Assembly: GCA_020073665.1 (NCBI GenBank)
Contig: JAIQEU010000006.1
Span: forward strand, 310,001-374,000
DNA length: 64,000 bases
Direction: 5' to 3'
DNA from: Terriglobia bacterium
GTDB lineage: Bacteria; Acidobacteriota; Terriglobia; Terriglobales; Acidobacteriaceae
The position numbers were made by a program, and so were the translations under genes. Position 1 is the stretch's first letter, and the number at the start of each line of letters is the position of its first letter. The notes beneath the pieces are model-generated. The model was given only the letters and a program-made list of their open reading frames with translations, was not told where the DNA came from and did no database searches. Below, in pieces: positions 47,110 to 54,559 of the stretch.

Positions 47110-47118
47110 GTGATTGAG

Positions 47119-47787
47119 ATGCGCACGGAAACCCAGCCCGACCGCTTTACTGCGCCGCGGGAGAGCATGGTAGCCTCGCAACTGCGCGGCCGCGGCATTG
47201 CTGACGAACGGGTGTTGGCCGCCATGACTCGGGTCCCGCGTCACCAGTTTGTCTCCGACAGCTACCACGACCAGGCTTACGAGGACCACCCGATTCCTAT
47301 CGGGGAGGGGCAGACCATCTCCCAGCCTTACATCGTTGGCATAACCCTGGAAGCGCTGGCGCTGCAACCGTCGGACATTGTCCTGGAAGTAGGCACCGGC
47401 TCCGGCTATCAAACCGCCATTCTGGCCGAACTAGCACACCACGTTTATTCCATCGAACGGCACGCCTCGCTGGCGCAAGGCGCGCACTCGATCCTGGCCA
47501 GCTTGGGTTATGACAACGTGACCGTCGTGGTCGGCGACGGAAGTCATGGCCTGGCCCAATCCGCGCCTTTCGACGCGATCGTGGTATCGGCGGCCGCTCC
47601 ACAGATTCCTCCTTTGCTGATCGAGCAGTTGAGCGAAGGCGGCCGCATGGTGATTCCCGTGGGCCCTGCCCATGCCCAGGAGTTGCTGTTGGTCCGCAAA
47701 CAACTGAGCAACACGGCGGTCCGAGTTCTCGAGGGATGCCGCTTCGTCCCGCTGATCGGCAGCGAGGGATACGGGTCTGATTGGTAG
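47119..47787 (+). CDS. pcm: Protein-L-isoaspartate O-methyltransferase
   Basis: 222 aa. Repairs isoaspartyl residues using S-adenosylmethionine. Motifs: ESMVASQLRGRGI, VPRHQFV, GQTISQPYIV, the SAM loop LEVGTGSGYQTAILAEL, GDGSHG and APFDAIVVSAAAP, LSEGGRMVIPVG. ATG 47119 was chosen; an upstream GTG at 47110 overlaps the expected transcription start. It follows tamB by 113 bp. Confidence 0.94.
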   Translation: MRTETQPDRFTAPRESMVASQLRGRGIADERVLAAMTRVPRHQFVSDSYHDQAYEDHPIPIGEGQTISQPYIVGITLEALALQPSDIVLEVGTGSGYQTAILAELAHHVYSIERHASLAQGAHSILASLGYDNVTVVVGDGSHGLAQSAPFDAIVVSAAAPQIPPLLIEQLSEGGRMVIPVGPAHAQELLLVRKQLSNTAVRVLEGCRFVPLIGSEGYGSDW

Positions 47788-47803
47788 CGCGTTGCCAGCG
47801 TAG

Positions 47804-47824
47804 GGACAGCCGCCTCGGCTGTCC
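47804..47824. repeat. Hairpin element GGACAGCCG-CCT-CGGCTGTCC
   Basis: A perfect 9-bp stem with 3-nt loop just after pcm, followed by GCCGAGCGAAGCGAGG. No T-run; it may be a dispersed palindrome, or it may protect mRNA ends. Confidence 0.55.
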
Positions 47825-47885
47825 GCCGAGCGAAGCGAGGTAAGGTGTTCCGGAAAGCTGAGAGCTGACATCTGATTTCTTGCTT

Positions 47886-47891
47886 TACAAT
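47886..47891 (+). promoter_or_regulatory. -10 element TACAAT of mqnP
   Basis: TACAAT ends 6 nt before the GTG at 47898, the same arrangement as TACAAT-N6-GTG before the KdpD-type kinase. A CTGAGAGCTGACATCTGAT word spacer precedes it. Confidence 0.55.
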
Positions 47892-47897
47892 CTCCCC

Positions 47898-48761
47898 GTG
47901 CCTGCCCTGCACAACCTGCGTGTCGCGCTGGAAATGATCAAGTGGGAGCACTCGGTGTTCGCGCTGCCATTTGCGCTGTGCGGAGCCATGCTGGCGGCGG
48001 ACGGGATGCCCACCGTCCACCAGTTGGGCTGGATCATTGTCGCCATGATCACCGCGCGTTCCGCGGCCATGGCCTTCAACCGTCTGGCCGACGCCCAGAT
48101 TGATGCGGCCAATCCCCGCACCCAAACCCGCGCCCTGCCCGCGGGCACCCTGACCCCCGGCTTCGTCGCTCTGTTTGTCACCGTGTCCTGCGCCGTCTTC
48201 GTGTTGGCCGCGTCACAACTCAACCGTCTGACTCTGGCGCTGTCGCCGGTGGCGCTGGCGGTGGTGCTGCTCTACTCCTACACCAAGCGCTTCACCCGCT
48301 GGTCGCACCTGGTATTGGGATTCGCCCTGGGCATCGCGCCCTCTGCAGCCTGGATTGCGGTGCGCGGGTCCTTCGATCCACGCATCCTGCTGCTCACCGT
48401 GGCCGTGACGTTCTGGGTAGGCGGCTTCGACGTGCTCTACGCTTGCCAGGACTACGAATTCGATCGCGAAGCCGGACTGCACTCGATCCCGCGCTACGTC
48501 GGAATCCCCAAAGCGTTGTGGATCGCCCGGTTGTTTCATGTGGTCATGCTGCTGTTGCTGATCGGATTGGTGCCCGCATTCGGGCTGGGGAAACTAGCGG
48601 TAGCGGGAGTGGCCGCGGTGTCCCTCCTGCTCGCCTACGAGCATTCCCTGGTATCTCCGCGCGACCTCTCTAAACTCAACGCCGCCTTCTTCACCATGAA
48701 CGGGGTGATCGCGGTAGTGTTCTTTGTGTTCGTGGCGGGGGACCGGTTGCTGAAGTGGTAA
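47898..48761 (+). CDS. mqnP: UbiA-family prenyltransferase, MqnP-like
   Basis: 287-aa inner-membrane prenyltransferase with about eight helices. The first Asp-rich site is NRLADAQIDA and the second is CQDYEFDREAGLHSIP, both typical of UbiA enzymes that bind prenyl diphosphate through magnesium. Position directly before mqnE supports MqnP, the prenyltransferase of the futalosine menaquinone route, rather than ubiquinone synthesis. GTG 47898 was chosen from the -10 spacing; the frame opens at 47880. Confidence 0.87.
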   Translation: MPALHNLRVALEMIKWEHSVFALPFALCGAMLAADGMPTVHQLGWIIVAMITARSAAMAFNRLADAQIDAANPRTQTRALPAGTLTPGFVALFVTVSCAVFVLAASQLNRLTLALSPVALAVVLLYSYTKRFTRWSHLVLGFALGIAPSAAWIAVRGSFDPRILLLTVAVTFWVGGFDVLYACQDYEFDREAGLHSIPRYVGIPKALWIARLFHVVMLLLLIGLVPAFGLGKLAVAGVAAVSLLLAYEHSLVSPRDLSKLNAAFFTMNGVIAVVFFVFVAGDRLLKW

Positions 48762-48836
48762 GGGACAAGCTGCCTGGCTGAGAGGTTGACACGGTACTCG
48801 CTACTCGGCACTGCCTTACGTTATCATCACAACAGG

Positions 48837-49967
48837 ATGGCGAACCTGCACCCCTTTCAAACTGATGACCCGCGCCTGCAGCCCGTCGCGGGCAAAGTTG
48901 TTGCCGGCGAGCGGCTGAGCGCTGACGACGCGCTGGCCCTCTACCGCACTGGCGACGTGCTGGCGGTGGGCTGGCTGGCCAATTCTGTCCGCGAGCGCCT
49001 GCACGGCAACAAGACGTACTTCAACGTCAACCGCCACATCAATCCCACCAACGTCTGTGTGGCCGCGTGCCGTCTATGCGCCTTTGGTCGCAAGAAGGAC
49101 ACGCCCGGCGCCTACACCATGGCTCTCGAAGAAGCCTTTGAGACCGCCGCTTCCGGTTACAGCGAGGCGGTTACCGAGTTTCATATTGTCGGCGGCCTGC
49201 ATCCCGATTTGCCTTTCCAGTATTTCCTCGACCTGTGCTCGGGACTCAAGCAGCGTTTTCCGCAGGTGCACCTGAAAGCCTTTACCATGGTCGAGGTGGC
49301 GTACCTGGCGAAGCGGGCCAAGCTTTCCATTCGCGAGACCCTGGAACAACTGAAAGCCGCGGGGGTGGATTCACTCCCTGGCGGCGGGGCGGAGATTTTT
49401 GCCGATCGCGTGCGCCACATCATCTGCGACCACAAGATCGACGGCGACCAGTGGCTAGAGACCGCCAAGCTCGCCCACCAGTTGGGGCTGAAATCCAACG
49501 CCACCATGCTCTATGGCCATGTCGAAAACGACGAAGATCGCGTGGACCATTTGCTCAAGCTGCGCGCATTACAAGATGAAACCGGCGGCTTCCAGACCTT
49601 CATCCCGCTGGCTTTCCATCCCGATAACACACCGTTGCAGCACCTGCCCAAGACCACCGGCATGCTCGACATCAAGCAGATCGCAGTCAGCCGCCTGGTA
49701 CTGGACAATTTTCCCCACATCAAAGCGTACTGGCAGATGCTCACGCCCAAGATCGCGCAAATCGCGCTGCGCTTCGGGGCCGACGACCTGGATGGCACCG
49801 TGATTGAAGAAAAGATTTACCACGACGCCGGCGCCACCACCCCGCAAGGCATGCGGCGGCAGGAACTGGTGCGCCTGATCAGGGAAGCCGGACGCGAACC
49901 GGTGGAGCGCGACACGCTCTACCGGCCAGTCACGCGAACCGAAACGTCGGTTACGGTCGCAGTTTAG
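48837..49967 (+). CDS. mqnE: Aminofutalosine synthase MqnE
   Basis: 376-aa radical-SAM enzyme. The cluster ligands are C74, C78 and C81 in VCVAACRLCAF. HIVGGLHPDLPFQYF, LPGGGAEIFADRVR and LKSNATMLYGHVEN are signatures of the MqnE/MqnC/CofH group. MqnE joins SAM-derived adenosyl to 3-[(1-carboxyvinyl)oxy]benzoate to make aminofutalosine, an early menaquinone step. The ATG at 48837 follows a CAGG; TTATCA lies 10 nt upstream, and the frame is open to 48786. Together with mqnP it implies menaquinone-based respiration by the futalosine pathway. Confidence 0.93.
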   Translation: MANLHPFQTDDPRLQPVAGKVVAGERLSADDALALYRTGDVLAVGWLANSVRERLHGNKTYFNVNRHINPTNVCVAACRLCAFGRKKDTPGAYTMALEEAFETAASGYSEAVTEFHIVGGLHPDLPFQYFLDLCSGLKQRFPQVHLKAFTMVEVAYLAKRAKLSIRETLEQLKAAGVDSLPGGGAEIFADRVRHIICDHKIDGDQWLETAKLAHQLGLKSNATMLYGHVENDEDRVDHLLKLRALQDETGGFQTFIPLAFHPDNTPLQHLPKTTGMLDIKQIAVSRLVLDNFPHIKAYWQMLTPKIAQIALRFGADDLDGTVIEEKIYHDAGATTPQGMRRQELVRLIREAGREPVERDTLYRPVTRTETSVTVAV

Positions 49968-50096: not shown

Positions 50097-50102
50097 TAGA
50101 AT
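50097..50102 (+). promoter_or_regulatory. -10 element TAGAAT of the RaiA-sigma operon
   Basis: TAGAAT about 56 nt before the ATG at 50159. Unlike most promoters here it leaves a substantial leader, containing the hairpin at 50128-50145. Confidence 0.4.
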
Positions 50103-50127
50103 CAGGTTGTAGCGAAAGGGAAGCTTC

Positions 50128-50145
50128 ACGGGGTCTGCTCCCCGT
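50128..50145 (+). promoter_or_regulatory. Leader hairpin before the RaiA-sigma gene
   Basis: ACGGGG-TCTGCT-CCCCGT forms a 6-bp GC-rich stem ending 4 nt upstream of the GAGG ribosome-binding site (50150-50153). It could modulate translation initiation; function is inferred. Confidence 0.4.
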
Positions 50146-50158
50146 TTCCGAGGCGCGC

Positions 50159-51205
50159 ATGAACGTCCACATCAGCTACAGAGTTCATAAAACCCCCGAC
50201 ATAGAAAAAGACGTCAACCACTTCATCGAAAAGCTGCGTAAGCGGCTGCAGGTGTTTCGCCCCGAACTGGTTCATCTGAAGGGCGTGGTGGAACAGAACT
50301 CCCCGCGGGAGGGGACCATCGTGTCCCTGAATCTGCGGCTGCCGTCGGGCCAGATGGCGGTGCAAAACTCGGCCGCCACGGCTGCGTCTGCCCTGAAGGG
50401 CGCATTTGACGACCTGCTGCAGCAGATCAACAAGCACAAGGACTTGCTGCGCAGCACCCACAAATGGTCGAACCGGCGGGGGGTGACCAGCACCCGGCGG
50501 GAGCCGCCGCAAGTGCCTTTCGAACAGACCATGGCATCGGTGCAGCCGGCTACCGTTTCTCCAGACGACATTCGCACCTACGTGAACGCGAACCTGGGGC
50601 GACTGGAGCGCTTTGTCGAGCGGGAGTTGCTGTTCCGCGAATACGCCGAGCAGATCCCCGCCGACCTGGTGAGTAAGGAGGAAGTAATCGACGAAGCCAT
50701 CGTCCAGGCCCTGGGTGAAGACAGCGAGAGGCCGGAGCGGCTGGCCCTCGAGCCATGGCTGTACCGGCTGTCGATCCACGCCATCAATGACCTGGCGTTG
50801 CGCAATCGGGAGACCTTCTCCTCGGTGCCGCTGGAAGAATCGGCACGCCGGCAGAATGTCCGTGCCAGCGATGAGCCCGGACTGCAGTTCCACCAGCCCG
50901 ACGAGGCCCTGACCGCCGAGAACGTGATTGCCGACCGCCGTACCGCCACGCCCGAAGACATCGCGTCCTCGGACGAAATGATCACGCTGGTGCAGTTTGC
51001 CCTGGGTAAGACCAGCAATGTGGACCGGGAAGCGTTCATTCTGCACGCCATCGAGGGCTTCTCGGTCGAAGAGATCGCCGCCATTACCGATCGTAAATCC
51101 GAAGATGTCCGTTCATCAATTGCCGCCGCGCGCGAGCACCTCCGCCACTCCCCCCCGATTGCCGATCGCTTCAAGGGGAAACTGCTGCAGGAGACCAAAG
51201 CCTAA
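50159..51205 (+). CDS. RaiA/HPF ribosome-hibernation domain fused to an ECF-like sigma factor
   Basis: 348 aa. Residues 1-100 match the S30AE/HPF-RaiA fold (VHISYRVHKTPDIEKDVNHF, LRLPSGQMAVQNSA, LLQQINKHKDLLR), which binds the small subunit's decoding groove and silences ribosomes. After a basic linker (101-135), residues 137-220 resemble sigma-70 region 2 (EEVIDEAIVQALG, LEPWLYRLSIHAINDLALRN). Residues 270-330 are a clear region 4 helix-turn-helix (REAFILHAIEGFSVEEIAAI, then SSIAAAREHLR). Region 2 is diverged. ATG 50159 has GAGG at 5 nt; the frame is open upstream but without homology. The next gene starts 29 bp later. Domain calls are from sequence pattern; a combined function is inference. 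Confidence 0.8.
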   Translation: MNVHISYRVHKTPDIEKDVNHFIEKLRKRLQVFRPELVHLKGVVEQNSPREGTIVSLNLRLPSGQMAVQNSAATAASALKGAFDDLLQQINKHKDLLRSTHKWSNRRGVTSTRREPPQVPFEQTMASVQPATVSPDDIRTYVNANLGRLERFVERELLFREYAEQIPADLVSKEEVIDEAIVQALGEDSERPERLALEPWLYRLSIHAINDLALRNRETFSSVPLEESARRQNVRASDEPGLQFHQPDEALTAENVIADRRTATPEDIASSDEMITLVQFALGKTSNVDREAFILHAIEGFSVEEIAAITDRKSEDVRSSIAAAREHLRHSPPIADRFKGKLLQETKA

Positions 51206-51234
51206 ATCCAAATTCAGACTCGGGAGAATCCGTG

Positions 51235-52413
51235 ATGATCACACGCGAAGACATCCGTGAGCTGGCTCAATTCCAAATCGATAGTCCGGAAGACTGTGCC
51301 CTGAGCTTTTACTTCCAGCCGCAAACTCCGCAGAACAAGTCGCACCGCGGAGAAACCATCCTAGTCAAAGACCTGGTACGGAACGCGCTGCGCGAGGCCG
51401 AAAAAAACGGCAAGAACGGTCTCACCCGTGCCAGCCTCGACCGCATCCTCGAGCTAGCCGCCGGATTGCACGGCAACCAGGCGCGGGCCAAGGCGGTGTT
51501 TTCCTGCGGCAGCCGTGATTTCTGGCGCGAGTTTGACCTGCCGCCGCGGTTGCCTGGAACCCAGCTGTTCGTCAACCGCCGTTTTCATCTGAAACCGCTG
51601 GCCCTGCTGCTAGGGGCACAGCCGCGTTTGGGAGTGGCGCTGGTGGATCGGCAGCGGGCGCGTTTTTTTGACATGCGCCTGGATGAGCTAAGGGAGCGCG
51701 AAGCCCTGTTCCATTCCATGCCCCGCCACGGCCGCAGCGATGGTTACGCCGGATACGATGCCGGCCATAGCCAGCGGCGCGTGGACGACGAGGCCCGCCA
51801 TCACTTCAAGAACGTCGCCGAACACCTGCGGGAAGCCATGGAAAAAGGCAAGTTCGAGCGCCTGATCGTGGGCTGCAACGACGCCACCTGGCATGAGGTC
51901 GAGCCGCTACTCCATCCCTATGTGAAGCAGCGGCTGCTGGGCCGTTTCTCCTGTGAAGTCGCGAACGCCAGCGGCGACCGGGTCAGGGCAGAAGCGGACC
52001 GCATCCTGCGAGAGGCACTCGATCAGCGCTGCCACAAGCTGGTTCGCGAAGTGCTGGACCAGGCCAAGAGCAACAGTCGCGGCGTCACCGGACTGCGTCG
52101 GGTGCTGCGTTCGATTGAAATGGGCGAGGTGCAGACCCTGTTTATCGGCGACCGGTATGCGGCCCACGCGGTGGAGTGCGCGAAATGCGGCCACCTCGAT
52201 CCTCACATGGTTCGCCACTGTCCGGTGTGCGCGCAGGAAACGCGCGAGCTCGACGACGTATGCGACGTGATTATCCCCACCGCGATCCTCCGCGACATCG
52301 AACTGTTCTACGTGAAGGACGACGAGGAATTCGATCAGGCGGGCAACATTGCCGCCCTGCTGCGCTTCCGCGCCGACCAGAGCAAGGGCACCAGGATCCC
52401 GGCAGCCTCGTAA
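51235..52413 (+). CDS. baeRF-family (eRF1/Vms1-like) ribosome-associated protein
   Basis: 392 aa. It resembles the bacterial archaeo-eukaryotic-release-factor (baeRF) group related to eRF1 and Vms1/ANKZF1. An N-terminal region is followed by a central RNase-H-like/eRF1 domain-2-like segment (LGVALVDRQRARFFDMRLDE). The loop GHSQRRVDDEARHHF (177-191) occupies the place of eRF1's GGQ loop and following helix. A C-terminal domain has NASGDRVRAEADRIL, a zinc ribbon (C315, C318, C329, C332) and the ending NIAALLRFR. Vms1-type proteins release peptidyl-tRNA on stalled subunits. Co-operonic with the hibernation-sigma fusion. GGGAG lies 8 nt before ATG 51235; GTG 51232 is also possible. Confidence 0.72.
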   Translation: MITREDIRELAQFQIDSPEDCALSFYFQPQTPQNKSHRGETILVKDLVRNALREAEKNGKNGLTRASLDRILELAAGLHGNQARAKAVFSCGSRDFWREFDLPPRLPGTQLFVNRRFHLKPLALLLGAQPRLGVALVDRQRARFFDMRLDELREREALFHSMPRHGRSDGYAGYDAGHSQRRVDDEARHHFKNVAEHLREAMEKGKFERLIVGCNDATWHEVEPLLHPYVKQRLLGRFSCEVANASGDRVRAEADRILREALDQRCHKLVREVLDQAKSNSRGVTGLRRVLRSIEMGEVQTLFIGDRYAAHAVECAKCGHLDPHMVRHCPVCAQETRELDDVCDVIIPTAILRDIELFYVKDDEEFDQAGNIAALLRFRADQSKGTRIPAAS

Positions 52414-52433
52414 ATCAATAACTTGGGATGGGA

Positions 52434-52461
52434 GGGCCCGCCAGGTGCGGGCCCTTTCTTT
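52434..52461 (+). terminator. Rho-independent terminator of the RaiA-sigma/baeRF operon
   Basis: GGGCCCGC-CAGGT-GCGGGCCC is a perfect 8-bp stem followed by TTTCTTT, 20 bp after the baeRF stop. Confidence 0.88.
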
Positions 52462-53165: not shown

Positions 53166-53320
53166 CGAAGATCTCCTTGAGAGTGGTTAACGGGGACGAG
53201 AGTGCATGCCATCCGCCCCCTGAGCAAGCATTAGATGGCAACCCTGAAAGGACGTCAAGCCCAAGATCGGCAGCGTGCTATGCTGTTCGCCGCTTCCACC
53301 AAGACCGTAGTGAGGTTGAC

Positions 53321-54559
53321 ATGGGTTATTCGCGCCGCGATTTTCTGGCGACCGCCGTGGTCGGGTCGCTTTCGCTGGGCTTGGAAGGGCAAGAAAGCAA
53401 GGCTACGGAACCTGCACGTGCCGCAACTGACCCCACGACCGGCAAGCGGCCGATCATCGTGTGCGCCAAGAACGGCCTCAATTATCTCGATGAGGCGTTC
53501 GGCATGCTGCGCGGCGGAGCCGACACCCTGGATGCCGCGCTGCGAGTAATACGCGGGCCGGAGGACGATCCCAACAACGACAGTGTCGGCCTGGGCGGTA
53601 TCCCCAACGAGGAAGGCGTCGTCGAGCTCGATGCCTGCTGCATGCACGGCCCCACTCGGCGCGCGGGCGCGGTCGGCGGTGTGCGCAACATCAAGAATGT
53701 TTCCCTGGTGGCTAAGGCCGTGATGGAGCACACCGGGCACGTCATGCTGGTAGGCGAGGGTGCCGAACGCTTTGCCGTGGCCCAGGGCTTTCCGCGCGAG
53801 AACCTGCTGACCGAGCACTCCCGCAAAATCTGGATGCTGTGGAAAGAGTGGCAATCCAGCCGTGACTGGTGGGGGCCTGGCATCGACGCACCCAACTGGA
53901 AAGCGCCGGAGACCGTACCCGATTCGGAGTTGTGGCAGCAGCGCATCCAGAAGCTCGAAGAAATAGCTGCTGGCCTGGCGATCGAGCCGGAGTTTCGTTC
54001 TGCCGCCATCCACCGCGTCCTATTCCCGCCCACCGGAACCATCCACTGCTCGGCCTTGAATGAAAAAGGCGAGATCTCGGGTTGCACCACCACCAGTGGC
54101 CTGGCATTCAAACTCCCCGGCCGGGTCGGCGATTCGCCCATCATCGGCGCCGGATGCTACACCGACCAGGACGTGGGTTCGGCCGGAGCCACCGGCACCG
54201 GGGAACAGAACATCAAGGTGGCGGGCGCGCATACCATTGTCGAAAATATGCGCCGCGGCATGTCACCGCAGGAAGCGGGTCTGGACGCCCTCAAGCGTAT
54301 CGTGCGCAACTTCAACGGAGACCACAACAAACTTCGCTTCATGGACATGACCTACTACGTTCTTCGCACCGATGGCGCCTACGCCTGCGTGTCGTTGTGG
54401 GAGGGCTACTCGCCCACCGATCCGCATGGCATGGCCATCCACGACGGCACTCGGCGCATCGAGAAGTCCGTCGGTTTGCTGAAGGGCAATTCGCAGGAAT
54501 TCCCCCCGGTGCCGAAGATACCGCCGGAGCTGTTGAAGAATTCGGATTACTACAAGTAG
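53321..54559 (+). CDS. Tat-exported N4-(beta-N-acetylglucosaminyl)-L-asparaginase/isoaspartyl peptidase family Ntn hydrolase
   Basis: 412 aa. A twin-arginine signal (YSRRDFLATAVVGSLSLG) at the N-terminus. The T2 Ntn-hydrolase core follows: GGAD-TLDAAL, DDPNNDSVGLGGIPNEEG, predicted autoprocessing nucleophile T240 in PPTGTIHCSALN, and the glycosylasparaginase signature CTTTSGLAFKLPGRVGDSPI. In glycosylasparaginase the residue before Thr is Asp; here it is Gly. Family enzymes cleave GlcNAc-Asn, isoaspartyl or asparagine bonds. The ATG was chosen for the Tat signal and GAGG upstream. Confidence 0.88.
   Translation: MGYSRRDFLATAVVGSLSLGLEGQESKATEPARAATDPTTGKRPIIVCAKNGLNYLDEAFGMLRGGADTLDAALRVIRGPEDDPNNDSVGLGGIPNEEGVVELDACCMHGPTRRAGAVGGVRNIKNVSLVAKAVMEHTGHVMLVGEGAERFAVAQGFPRENLLTEHSRKIWMLWKEWQSSRDWWGPGIDAPNWKAPETVPDSELWQQRIQKLEEIAAGLAIEPEFRSAAIHRVLFPPTGTIHCSALNEKGEISGCTTTSGLAFKLPGRVGDSPIIGAGCYTDQDVGSAGATGTGEQNIKVAGAHTIVENMRRGMSPQEAGLDALKRIVRNFNGDHNKLRFMDMTYYVLRTDGAYACVSLWEGYSPTDPHGMAIHDGTRRIEKSVGLLKGNSQEFPPVPKIPPELLKNSDYYK

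Follow-up and report, generated by a model that had tools for sequence, protein, structure and literature searches.

What does a protein do that carries, in one chain, a domain known from ribosome hibernation and a part resembling a sigma factor? This question is raised by a gene in a 64,000-nucleotide stretch of contig JAIQEU010000006.1 from a soil bacterium of the Terriglobia, the whole of which we call the window. An open reading frame (ORF) of 348 residues (P0001) runs on the plus strand from an ATG at 50159 to a stop at 51205, and the parts and signals of this gene and its partner described below all lie on that strand. ORF analysis, Pfam, NCBIfam and AlphaFold identified an HPF/RaiA domain, a sigma2-like domain and a sigma4-like domain in a single frame, and we named the protein HPF-SL, for HPF plus sigma-like. 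An earlier note on this DNA had suggested that the sigma part could be a functional sigma factor, sequestered while the protein is on ribosomes and, once free, in charge of a regulon. Our analysis points in another direction: the best explanation, which we put forward tentatively, is that HPF-SL would be a ribosome-docking factor with a sigma-mimicking, protein-binding module that couples ribosome status to transcription.

Architecture of HPF-SL

Residues 1-106 (50159-50476) make up the HPF/RaiA (S30AE) domain, by Pfam and by structural match. Pfam S30AE matched residues 9-95 (E 1.6e-6; 29.2 bits, over the gathering cut-off of 23.7); among other members the profile scored over its cut-off in L067, L065 and L180 and below it in L181 and L182, and no match was listed for L066 and P0003. 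An AlphaFold model built from 26 close sequences (mean predicted local distance difference test score (pLDDT) 71; predicted template modelling score (pTM) 0.32) contained three folded units, at residues 2-106, 135-219 and 265-330, with pLDDT below 50 at 102-129, 220-267 and 335-348. Residues 2-106 were modelled in the beta-alpha-beta-beta-beta-alpha fold of HPF. The best structural row for this unit was 8rd8_D, the RaiA of a Balon-bound ribosome (Z 15.3; root-mean-square deviation (rmsd) 1.4; 98 residues aligned), tied within 1 Z with the other HPF/RaiA entries 4hei_A and 6h4n_x, and position 92 is basic in 95% of 43 aligned family members. The C-terminal dimerisation domain of long HPF was absent among the six Pfam matches of P0001 at E <= 10, the C-terminus being sigma-like. 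These results bear out the earlier note in placing HPF and sigma regions in one frame, with boundaries refined to residues 1-106, 135-219 and 268-330. HPF-SL belongs to the S30AE superfamily; its architecture is one that we found nowhere described in open-licence PMC papers. The genome of the window encodes two further S30AE proteins (C16:156568-156837 and C10:308349-308630): one is a long HPF whose gene follows rpoN directly (both named by eye), the other is short and lies 1.4 kb before the window start.

A chance fusion or an assembly or frame artefact was rejected, because the frame is single and open in 25 of 28 close relatives (52-77% identity; L021 and L025 are fragments and L028 is interrupted) and also because the family is present in plasmids sequenced complete. 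Origin as a phage gene was rejected too, tblastn finding no match among 50,697 phage records. The interrupted copy (L028:1021-1990, also L164) is broken after about residue 157-178, probably by an error in the metagenome-assembled genome (MAG) or by decay.

The sigma2-like domain spans residues 135-219 (50561-50815), as seen by NCBIfam, AlphaFold and alignment with extracytoplasmic function (ECF) sigma factors, and the sigma4-like domain spans residues 268-330 (50960-51148), as seen by Pfam and alignment. Region 4 matched the PhyR sigma-like mimic (Pfam PhyR_sigma-like, residues 289-326, E 7.9e-7, 29.2 bits over a cut-off of 27) as well as real sigma factors (Sigma70_r4_2, residues 289-328, E 1.5e-8, over cut-off). 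NCBIfam TIGR02937 (sigma70-ECF) covered residues 158-330 at E 2.3e-8 and 33.8 bits, under its cut-off of 42.9, and the PhyR-type profiles in other members all stayed below theirs (in L181, PhyR_sigma-like 1.1e-5 and PhyR_sigma2 6.4e-4). Pfam detected no receiver domain in P0001, in which the domain fused to the sigma-like part is HPF, and HPF-SL was not filed under PhyR for that reason.

Fusions were aligned together with ECF-type proteins encoded in the genome of the window and compared with them. The 34 fusions were drawn from 54 listed sequences (set A1), leaving out the fragments L021, L025, L028, L078 and L082, the plain sigma factor L059, the overlong frame L079 and other close relatives. 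The controls were 22 of 30 fetched loci (from 47 region-4 matches in the genome) with a match at E <= 1e-3, the fusion's own locus L110 being excluded; 18-22 of them were aligned per position, with L105 and L108 among the poorly aligned. The compared positions in regions 2.2, 2.3 and 2.4 and in the recognition helix were read by the functional meaning that we take them to have in ECF sigmas. Results showed that the recognition helix (residues 312-327) is short of the basic residues of ECFs, with a mean net charge of +0.18 in the fusions (n = 34) against +3.23 in the ECFs (n = 22; Mann-Whitney p 6e-8), close relatives averaging +0.8 and distant ones -0.7. Region 2.4 was also less basic (-0.35 against +1.94, n = 18; p 2.6e-5), with the subgroups in the opposite order (distant +0.7, close -1.1); these p-values overstate significance because related sequences were treated as independent. 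The Gln of region 2.2, found in 16 of 20 aligned ECFs and so not universal there, is replaced by Asp (D178) in 32 of 34 fusions, and the Asn of region 2.3, found in 15 of 20 ECFs, is kept in one fusion only (L008). The sigma2-like domain is about 10 residues longer than ECF sigma2, and in the 26 close sequences variability was higher in the recognition helix (1.78 bits) than over the whole of sigma4 (1.17 bits). Two features of ECF sigmas, the basic recognition helix and region 2.4 and the Gln of region 2.2, are thus not shared by the family, and HPF-SL was not filed among ECF sigmas for this reason.

Judged from these residues, the sigma half is probably not a working sigma factor. That such a factor sits on idle ribosomes and is released to drive a recovery or stress regulon, as the earlier note had it, now appears quite improbable. 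Its sigma2 and sigma4 domains are recognisable, W200 is present in 32 of 34 fusions and R290 in all 34, and Arg318, retained in 15 of 34 members, leaves room for residual DNA contact; regulatory domains fused to ECF sigmas are, moreover, a known theme (ECF41; PMC3426412). Set against this are the charge lost in the recognition helix and region 2.4, a helix variable even among close relatives, the replacement of the region 2.2 Gln and the region 2.3 Asn, and the fact that no ECF-type promoter was seen upstream of the fusion gene on inspection by eye. Loss of the key residues is extensive and not complete, Arg318 being kept in some members.

Between the two sigma-like domains lies a linker (residues 220-267; 50816-50959), delimited by AlphaFold, conservation and the ratio of nonsynonymous to synonymous substitution rates (dN/dS). 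It contains the motif FHQPDE (residues 244-249; 50888-50905), which the earlier note had not recorded and which motif counts mark as the family hallmark. In a set of 45 family members from three phyla (34 acidobacterial, 9 proteobacterial and 2 without HPF), the pattern (F/Y/W)x(Q/E)P(D/E)(D/E) stood at the aligned place in 44, the exception being L081 with GYEPEQ, against none of the 22 ECFs of the same genome. P247 and R290 are invariant across the 45, Q246 and D248 are kept in 43 and E/D249 in 44, and D178 and P265 reach 93% and 96%. Conservation in the linker part 239-267 came close to that of the HPF domain (0.81 against 0.78 bits), and the median dN/dS of 32 pairs was 0.083 for HPF, 0.084 for the linker, 0.095 for sigma2 and a looser 0.216 for sigma4. 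Because it is conserved and yet has a pLDDT below 50 in the window protein, the QPDE stretch suggests a binding segment, or one that folds only with a partner. Two sigma-like proteins whose frames contain no HPF domain have a QPDE-type linker as well: L173:5678-6433, from one of 47 genomes of the Eisenbacteria phylum, and L178:1375-2088, from one of 299 Pseudomonadota genomes.

With sigma2 and linker constrained like HPF and the DNA-reading surface weakened, the module is kept, probably not for promoter reading. That the sigma half is a functionless relic in decay is highly improbable. Among the folded parts sigma4 shows the weakest constraint, and little of it is left in the tLST orf11 described below, but the linker motif persists over three phyla, sigma2 and linker evolve at a dN/dS of about 0.09, close to that of HPF, and the fusion is kept in 110 of 250 genomes of its own family; a pure relic, which the earlier note had raised as an alternative, is disfavoured.

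The partner gene and the spread of the fusion

Behind the fusion lies a gene for a protein of 392 residues (P0002; 51235-52413), examined by Pfam, NCBIfam, profile search and predicted fold. Its ATG at 51235 is 29 nt past the fusion stop, GTG at 51232 being an alternative start, and an intrinsic-terminator-like hairpin (52430-52458; terminator scan) closes the gene pair, as the earlier note had described; the scanned region held 8 terminator-like sites against 3.0 expected from shuffles. The protein matched Pfam baeRF_family10 (E 1.6e-26) and has two CxxC pairs and neither a GGQ nor a NIKS string, NKS standing at 34-36. Its best score against the NCBIfam Balon-type families, 53 bits, did not reach the cut-off of 330, and a single-sequence search against the PDB gave nothing significant, so that a profile search was needed. 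In a model built from set A6 (16 rows) in place of A4 (20 rows), with pLDDT 83, all six Balon entries listed scored Z 23.1-30.3 against at most 16.5 for eRF1, with Pelota/Dom34 also well below; the best row was 8v9l_z, a Balon (Z 30.3; rmsd 2.9; 360 aligned). From this model the partner is predicted to resemble in fold Balon, a hibernation factor, rather than a rescue factor. A Vms1-like or rescue role was judged unlikely in view of the predicted Balon fold, and the clearing of stalled complexes that the earlier note had assigned to this protein becomes less likely with it.

Within the fusion's own family, 110 of 250 genomes, from 46 of 79 genera, had a match to HPF-SL (E <= 1e-20, counting the genome of the window), with both halves visible in 108 (G468 and G480 are contig-end fragments); a relative of the partner was found in 103 of the 250. 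A survey of co-occurrence showed that in 86 of the 110 genomes with a fusion the partner is the adjacent downstream gene, in the same orientation, at a median gap of 43 nt (-4 to 301), and 89 of 91 genomes with a partner relative at least 42% identical carry the fusion. From the 24 fusion genomes without an adjacent partner, 18 were fetched (all except G468, G502, G510, G526, G541 and G546): 13 had no partner, L159 showed a partner start at the contig end, and four had at most 1.3 kb downstream. In four loci without partner (L157, L152, L148 and L147) the fusion is followed, by eye, by the counterpart of the asparaginase-like gene found at 53177-54559 of the window, beyond the partner. The pairing of fusion and Balon-like gene is strong but not obligatory. 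Balon genes most often adjoin raiA, and alternative sigma70 factors are among their listed neighbours (PMC10901736); the string 'acidobacteri' is absent from the main text of that paper, whose passages describe no fusion.

This neighbour bears on the main rival explanation, which has the sigma half without a transcription role: it would replace the dimerisation domain of long HPF, or touch Balon, bS1 or a second ribosome, and so stabilise hibernating ribosomes. The layout parallels that of long HPF (N-terminal S30AE, linker, C-terminal module), a separate long HPF being encoded in the same genome; the Balon-like neighbour and the reduced DNA-reading charge agree with such a role, and a partner on the ribosome, being universal, would fit a gene whose neighbours differ widely between its two phyla. 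We nevertheless regard it as rather unlikely, since the HPF-less proteins L173 and L178, with the same linker type, indicate that the module is useful without a fused HPF, and since STAS-domain neighbours in one family (below) point to sigma biology.

The fusion also occurs beyond its own family. A contig scan found 28 relatives at 52-77% identity, all in acidobacteriotal MAGs, together with 3 matches to sigma parts only. By single-sequence search, a full-length fusion (from query residue <= 23 to >= 328) was present in 21 of 396 acidobacteriotal genomes, own genome included, under 10 family labels, nine besides its own; most other matches in the tally of 125 align to sigma parts only. From the 299 Pseudomonadota genomes came a single complete fusion, a sigma half close to the end of a contig and a sigma-like protein whose frame has no HPF, and a rerun with profile A5 on a sample of equal size returned the same 3 of 299 genomes. 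In 47 genomes of the phylum of the Eisenbacteria locus, no fusion match at E <= 1e-15 reached the HPF part.

Proteobacterial fusions are flanked by Hsp20, FtsH, Clp-type ATPases, HdeD, thioredoxin and KefB-type antiporters in Shinella and Klebsiella, and by Hsp20 and GroES-GroEL-DnaK in Burkholderia and Paraburkholderia, with similar partial neighbour sets in Caulobacter, Acinetobacter and Sphingomonas. With an alphaproteobacterial fusion as query, tblastn matched 288 of 72,556 plasmids, mostly from Klebsiella, Enterobacter, Acinetobacter and Escherichia. The Klebsiella match inspected was a 'hypothetical protein' between hdeD-GI and trx-GI, the place that the tLST1 gene order gives to orf11 (PMC8290217, in part). 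From sequence and position, the fusion appears to be orf11 of tLST (locus of heat resistance), a mobile island that E. coli and Klebsiella carry. Plasmids matching the orf11 protein numbered 298 of 72,556, of which 266 had at least 80% of it covered; among 5,426 complete E. coli genomes the gene was matched in 152, at a coverage of 80% or more in 144. A proteobacterial set of 7 sequences, orf11 first, aligned to the acidobacterial set in hhalign with probability 100 (E 3.2e-54; 335 columns). The N-terminus of its profile found HPF structures (best 6.9e-4) and the C-terminus sigma and PhyR structures (1.4e-8; 2lfw 2.7e-4), and the linker motif of orf11 is FYQPDD. Pfam did not recognise S30AE in tLST orf11 itself, so that the HPF assignment there, which comes from the profile alignment of the 7-sequence set, is the weakest link. 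Between a Klebsiella and an Acinetobacter copy, the dN/dS of orf11 (0.46, based on 28 differences) was similar to the values for its neighbours yfdX2 (0.47) and hdeD (0.42).

In the family f61, fusions occur in all three genomes. Three of the five fusions there are directly followed by a STAS-domain gene (L066:4896-5234, L080:5099-5437 and L175:5438-5779), identified by Pfam for two (E 1.2e-20 and 3.1e-18) and by tblastn, in which one found the other two at 97% and 76%. The other two fusions are followed by a baeRF10-type gene, and two of the three genomes carry both kinds. These STAS genes leave the link between ribosome and sigma biology drawn in the earlier note plausible, apart from the regulon driven by the sigma part. 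They also raise a narrower form of the explanation that we favour, a PhyR-type partner switch only, in which the sigma half would sequester an anti-sigma factor and free a separate ECF sigma when ribosomes are idle. The PhyR_sigma-like match over cut-off in P0001 and the PhyR_sigma2 match below cut-off in L181 agree with it. We consider it improbable as the whole account, because no anti-sigma gene was recognised nearby, by eye or among 10 scanned neighbour proteins (no systematic search was made), and because persistence on plasmids across many hosts is not what a lineage-specific anti-sigma would lead one to expect. Several other acidobacteriotal fusions adjoin an OB-HD protein, an aminotransferase or both, with no obvious meaning.

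Promoter, leader and upstream genes

Upstream of the fusion gene, inspection of relatives' DNA pointed to a -10-like TAGAAT at 50097-50102. This element stands at a conserved place in Terriglobales relatives, mostly as GTGTA[GCA]AAT or TGTA[GC]AAT (by eye), and was not among the matches of a consensus promoter scan. A leader of about 50 nt follows it in the window (element and leader together spanning 50097-50158) and in the Terriglobales relatives. It contains a Shine-Dalgarno GAGG (50150-50153), invariant across 24 aligned leaders, and a weakly conserved hairpin of the form ACGGGG-loop-CCCCGT (50128-50145; leader alignment), whose consensus has only 4 pairs and was computed from 12 chosen of the 24 leaders. 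A simple word search separated at least two leader types among relatives, the CTTCACGGG type and the GCACT...GGTTGCG type, with 9 of 24 each. The fusion gene may have a structured upstream leader. TATAAT lies 7-11 nt before the chosen ATG in 9 of 18 distant loci (L067, L069, L070, L071, L073, L074, L075, L077 and L082, out of L065-L082), some being near relatives of one another; this spacing suggests leaderless mRNAs for the HPF-SL family in some acidobacteriotal lineages.

The genes at 47110-49967, upstream of the fusion, are apparently unrelated to it; we take them, by eye, to encode a Pcm-type methyltransferase, a UbiA-type prenyltransferase and a radical-SAM enzyme of the futalosine pathway.

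Proposed function and known systems

We propose that HPF-SL acts as a stress or stasis factor. Its fold and profile matches suggest that the HPF domain would dock in the decoding channel of idle ribosomes, like HPF/RaiA. The C-terminal half would descend from an ECF-type sigma factor that has probably lost promoter reading, and would be retained as a protein-binding module with the conserved QPDE linker. It would most likely act by sigma mimicry toward core RNA polymerase, or toward an anti-sigma factor where the lineage has a partner-switch gene next to the fusion. Docking of the HPF half on a ribosome would alter the availability of the sigma half, coupling translation shutdown to transcription control. 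In its own family the protein would act beside a Balon-type hibernation factor, and in Proteobacteria it would be carried in chaperone and protease stress islands. We prefer a sigma mimic because the surface that reads DNA is weakened, whereas sigma biology is indicated by fold, constraint, PhyR-like profile matches and the STAS genes nearby; core RNA polymerase would fit better as partner than a lineage-specific anti-sigma because the gene occurs in several phyla and on plasmids. A fuller version is possible and more doubtful: HPF-SL would be a single-protein coupler that parks ribosomes with its HPF half and, with a sigma half blind to promoters, fills the sigma site of RNA polymerase or captures an anti-sigma factor. 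Transcription and translation would then stop or resume together, with Balon as companion in Acidobacteriota and with orf11 of a mobile stress island as the form in Gram-negatives.

Several observations weigh against sigma mimicry as described, besides the retained Arg318 and the empty inspection for anti-sigma genes. The top structural rows spanning both domains of the sigma half were anti-sigma-bound forms (5uxx_C, RpoE-NepR, Z 10.7, rmsd 4.5, 151 aligned; 2lfw, PhyR-NepR, Z 10.3, rmsd 5.2, 141 aligned; 3t0y was also among the rows), but a Z under about 13 is weak for helical folds, sigmas bound to RNA polymerase scored only about 1 Z lower (9.0-9.7, though with rmsd above 20), and the free sigma 7qh5_B matched as well (Z 9.3; rmsd 4.9). 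The closed sigma arrangement moreover comes from a low-confidence model (pTM 0.32; linker pLDDT below 50). The charge ranges of the recognition helix overlap (-3 to +3 in fusions, 0 to +6 in ECFs), and core binding, if kept, would be altered, given the Gln-to-Asp change in region 2.2 and the insertion of about 10 residues. STAS neighbours are confined to three genomes of one family, and 13 fusion genomes at least have no Balon-like gene behind the fusion despite 1.8 kb or more of downstream sequence. In tLST orf11, sigma4 is barely recognisable (Pfam E 0.022). When 13 tLST1 genes were deleted singly in E. coli MG1655 lacZ::LHR, orf11 was not among the seven reported as required for heat or chlorine resistance, and its deletion left lipid oxidation unchanged, according to the passages of that study (PMC8407380); any role that it has was thus not visible in killing assays.

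Compared with known systems, HPF-SL shares with HPF/RaiA the N-terminal fold, the profile match and the basic residue at position 92, and differs from long HPF in having a sigma-derived module where long HPF has its dimerisation domain. The PhyR sigma-like domain is not known to read promoters. With PhyR of the alphaproteobacterial general stress response, HPF-SL has in common the sigma-like fold, the PhyR_sigma-like match over cut-off and the 2lfw and 3t0y rows, but it is fused to HPF, has no receiver found and no NepR or EcfG partner known here, and has the QPDE linker. This hallmark defines the family and can be searched for and mutated. The gene pair resembles the Balon system in the Balon fold of the modelled downstream protein and in an adjoining S30AE gene, as raiA adjoins Balon; here, however, the S30AE neighbour is itself a sigma-like fusion, and the curated NCBIfam cut-offs are not reached.

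The likeness to tLST orf11 extends to a full-length profile match, the QPDE-type motif and the place between hdeD-GI and trx-GI, whereas the neighbours of orf11 are ClpK, YfdX, HdeD, Trx and KefB rather than Balon, and its sigma4 is much eroded; a domain structure is now assigned to this previously unexplained gene. Archaeal HibA likewise has a regulatory module fused to an HPF domain, but this CBS module is N-terminal, the protein is archaeal, and the passages of its description mention no sigma-like fusion (PMC13324472); that paper reports a screen for domains joined to HPF, and a fusion with a sigma part could appear in its supplement. Bacteria shut down their ribosomes and RNA polymerase in a coordinated way, for which E. 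coli uses two separate proteins, RMF and Rsd (PMC6904343). A single protein with ribosome-parking and sigma-derived domains would make the coupling of ribosome and RNA polymerase directly testable.

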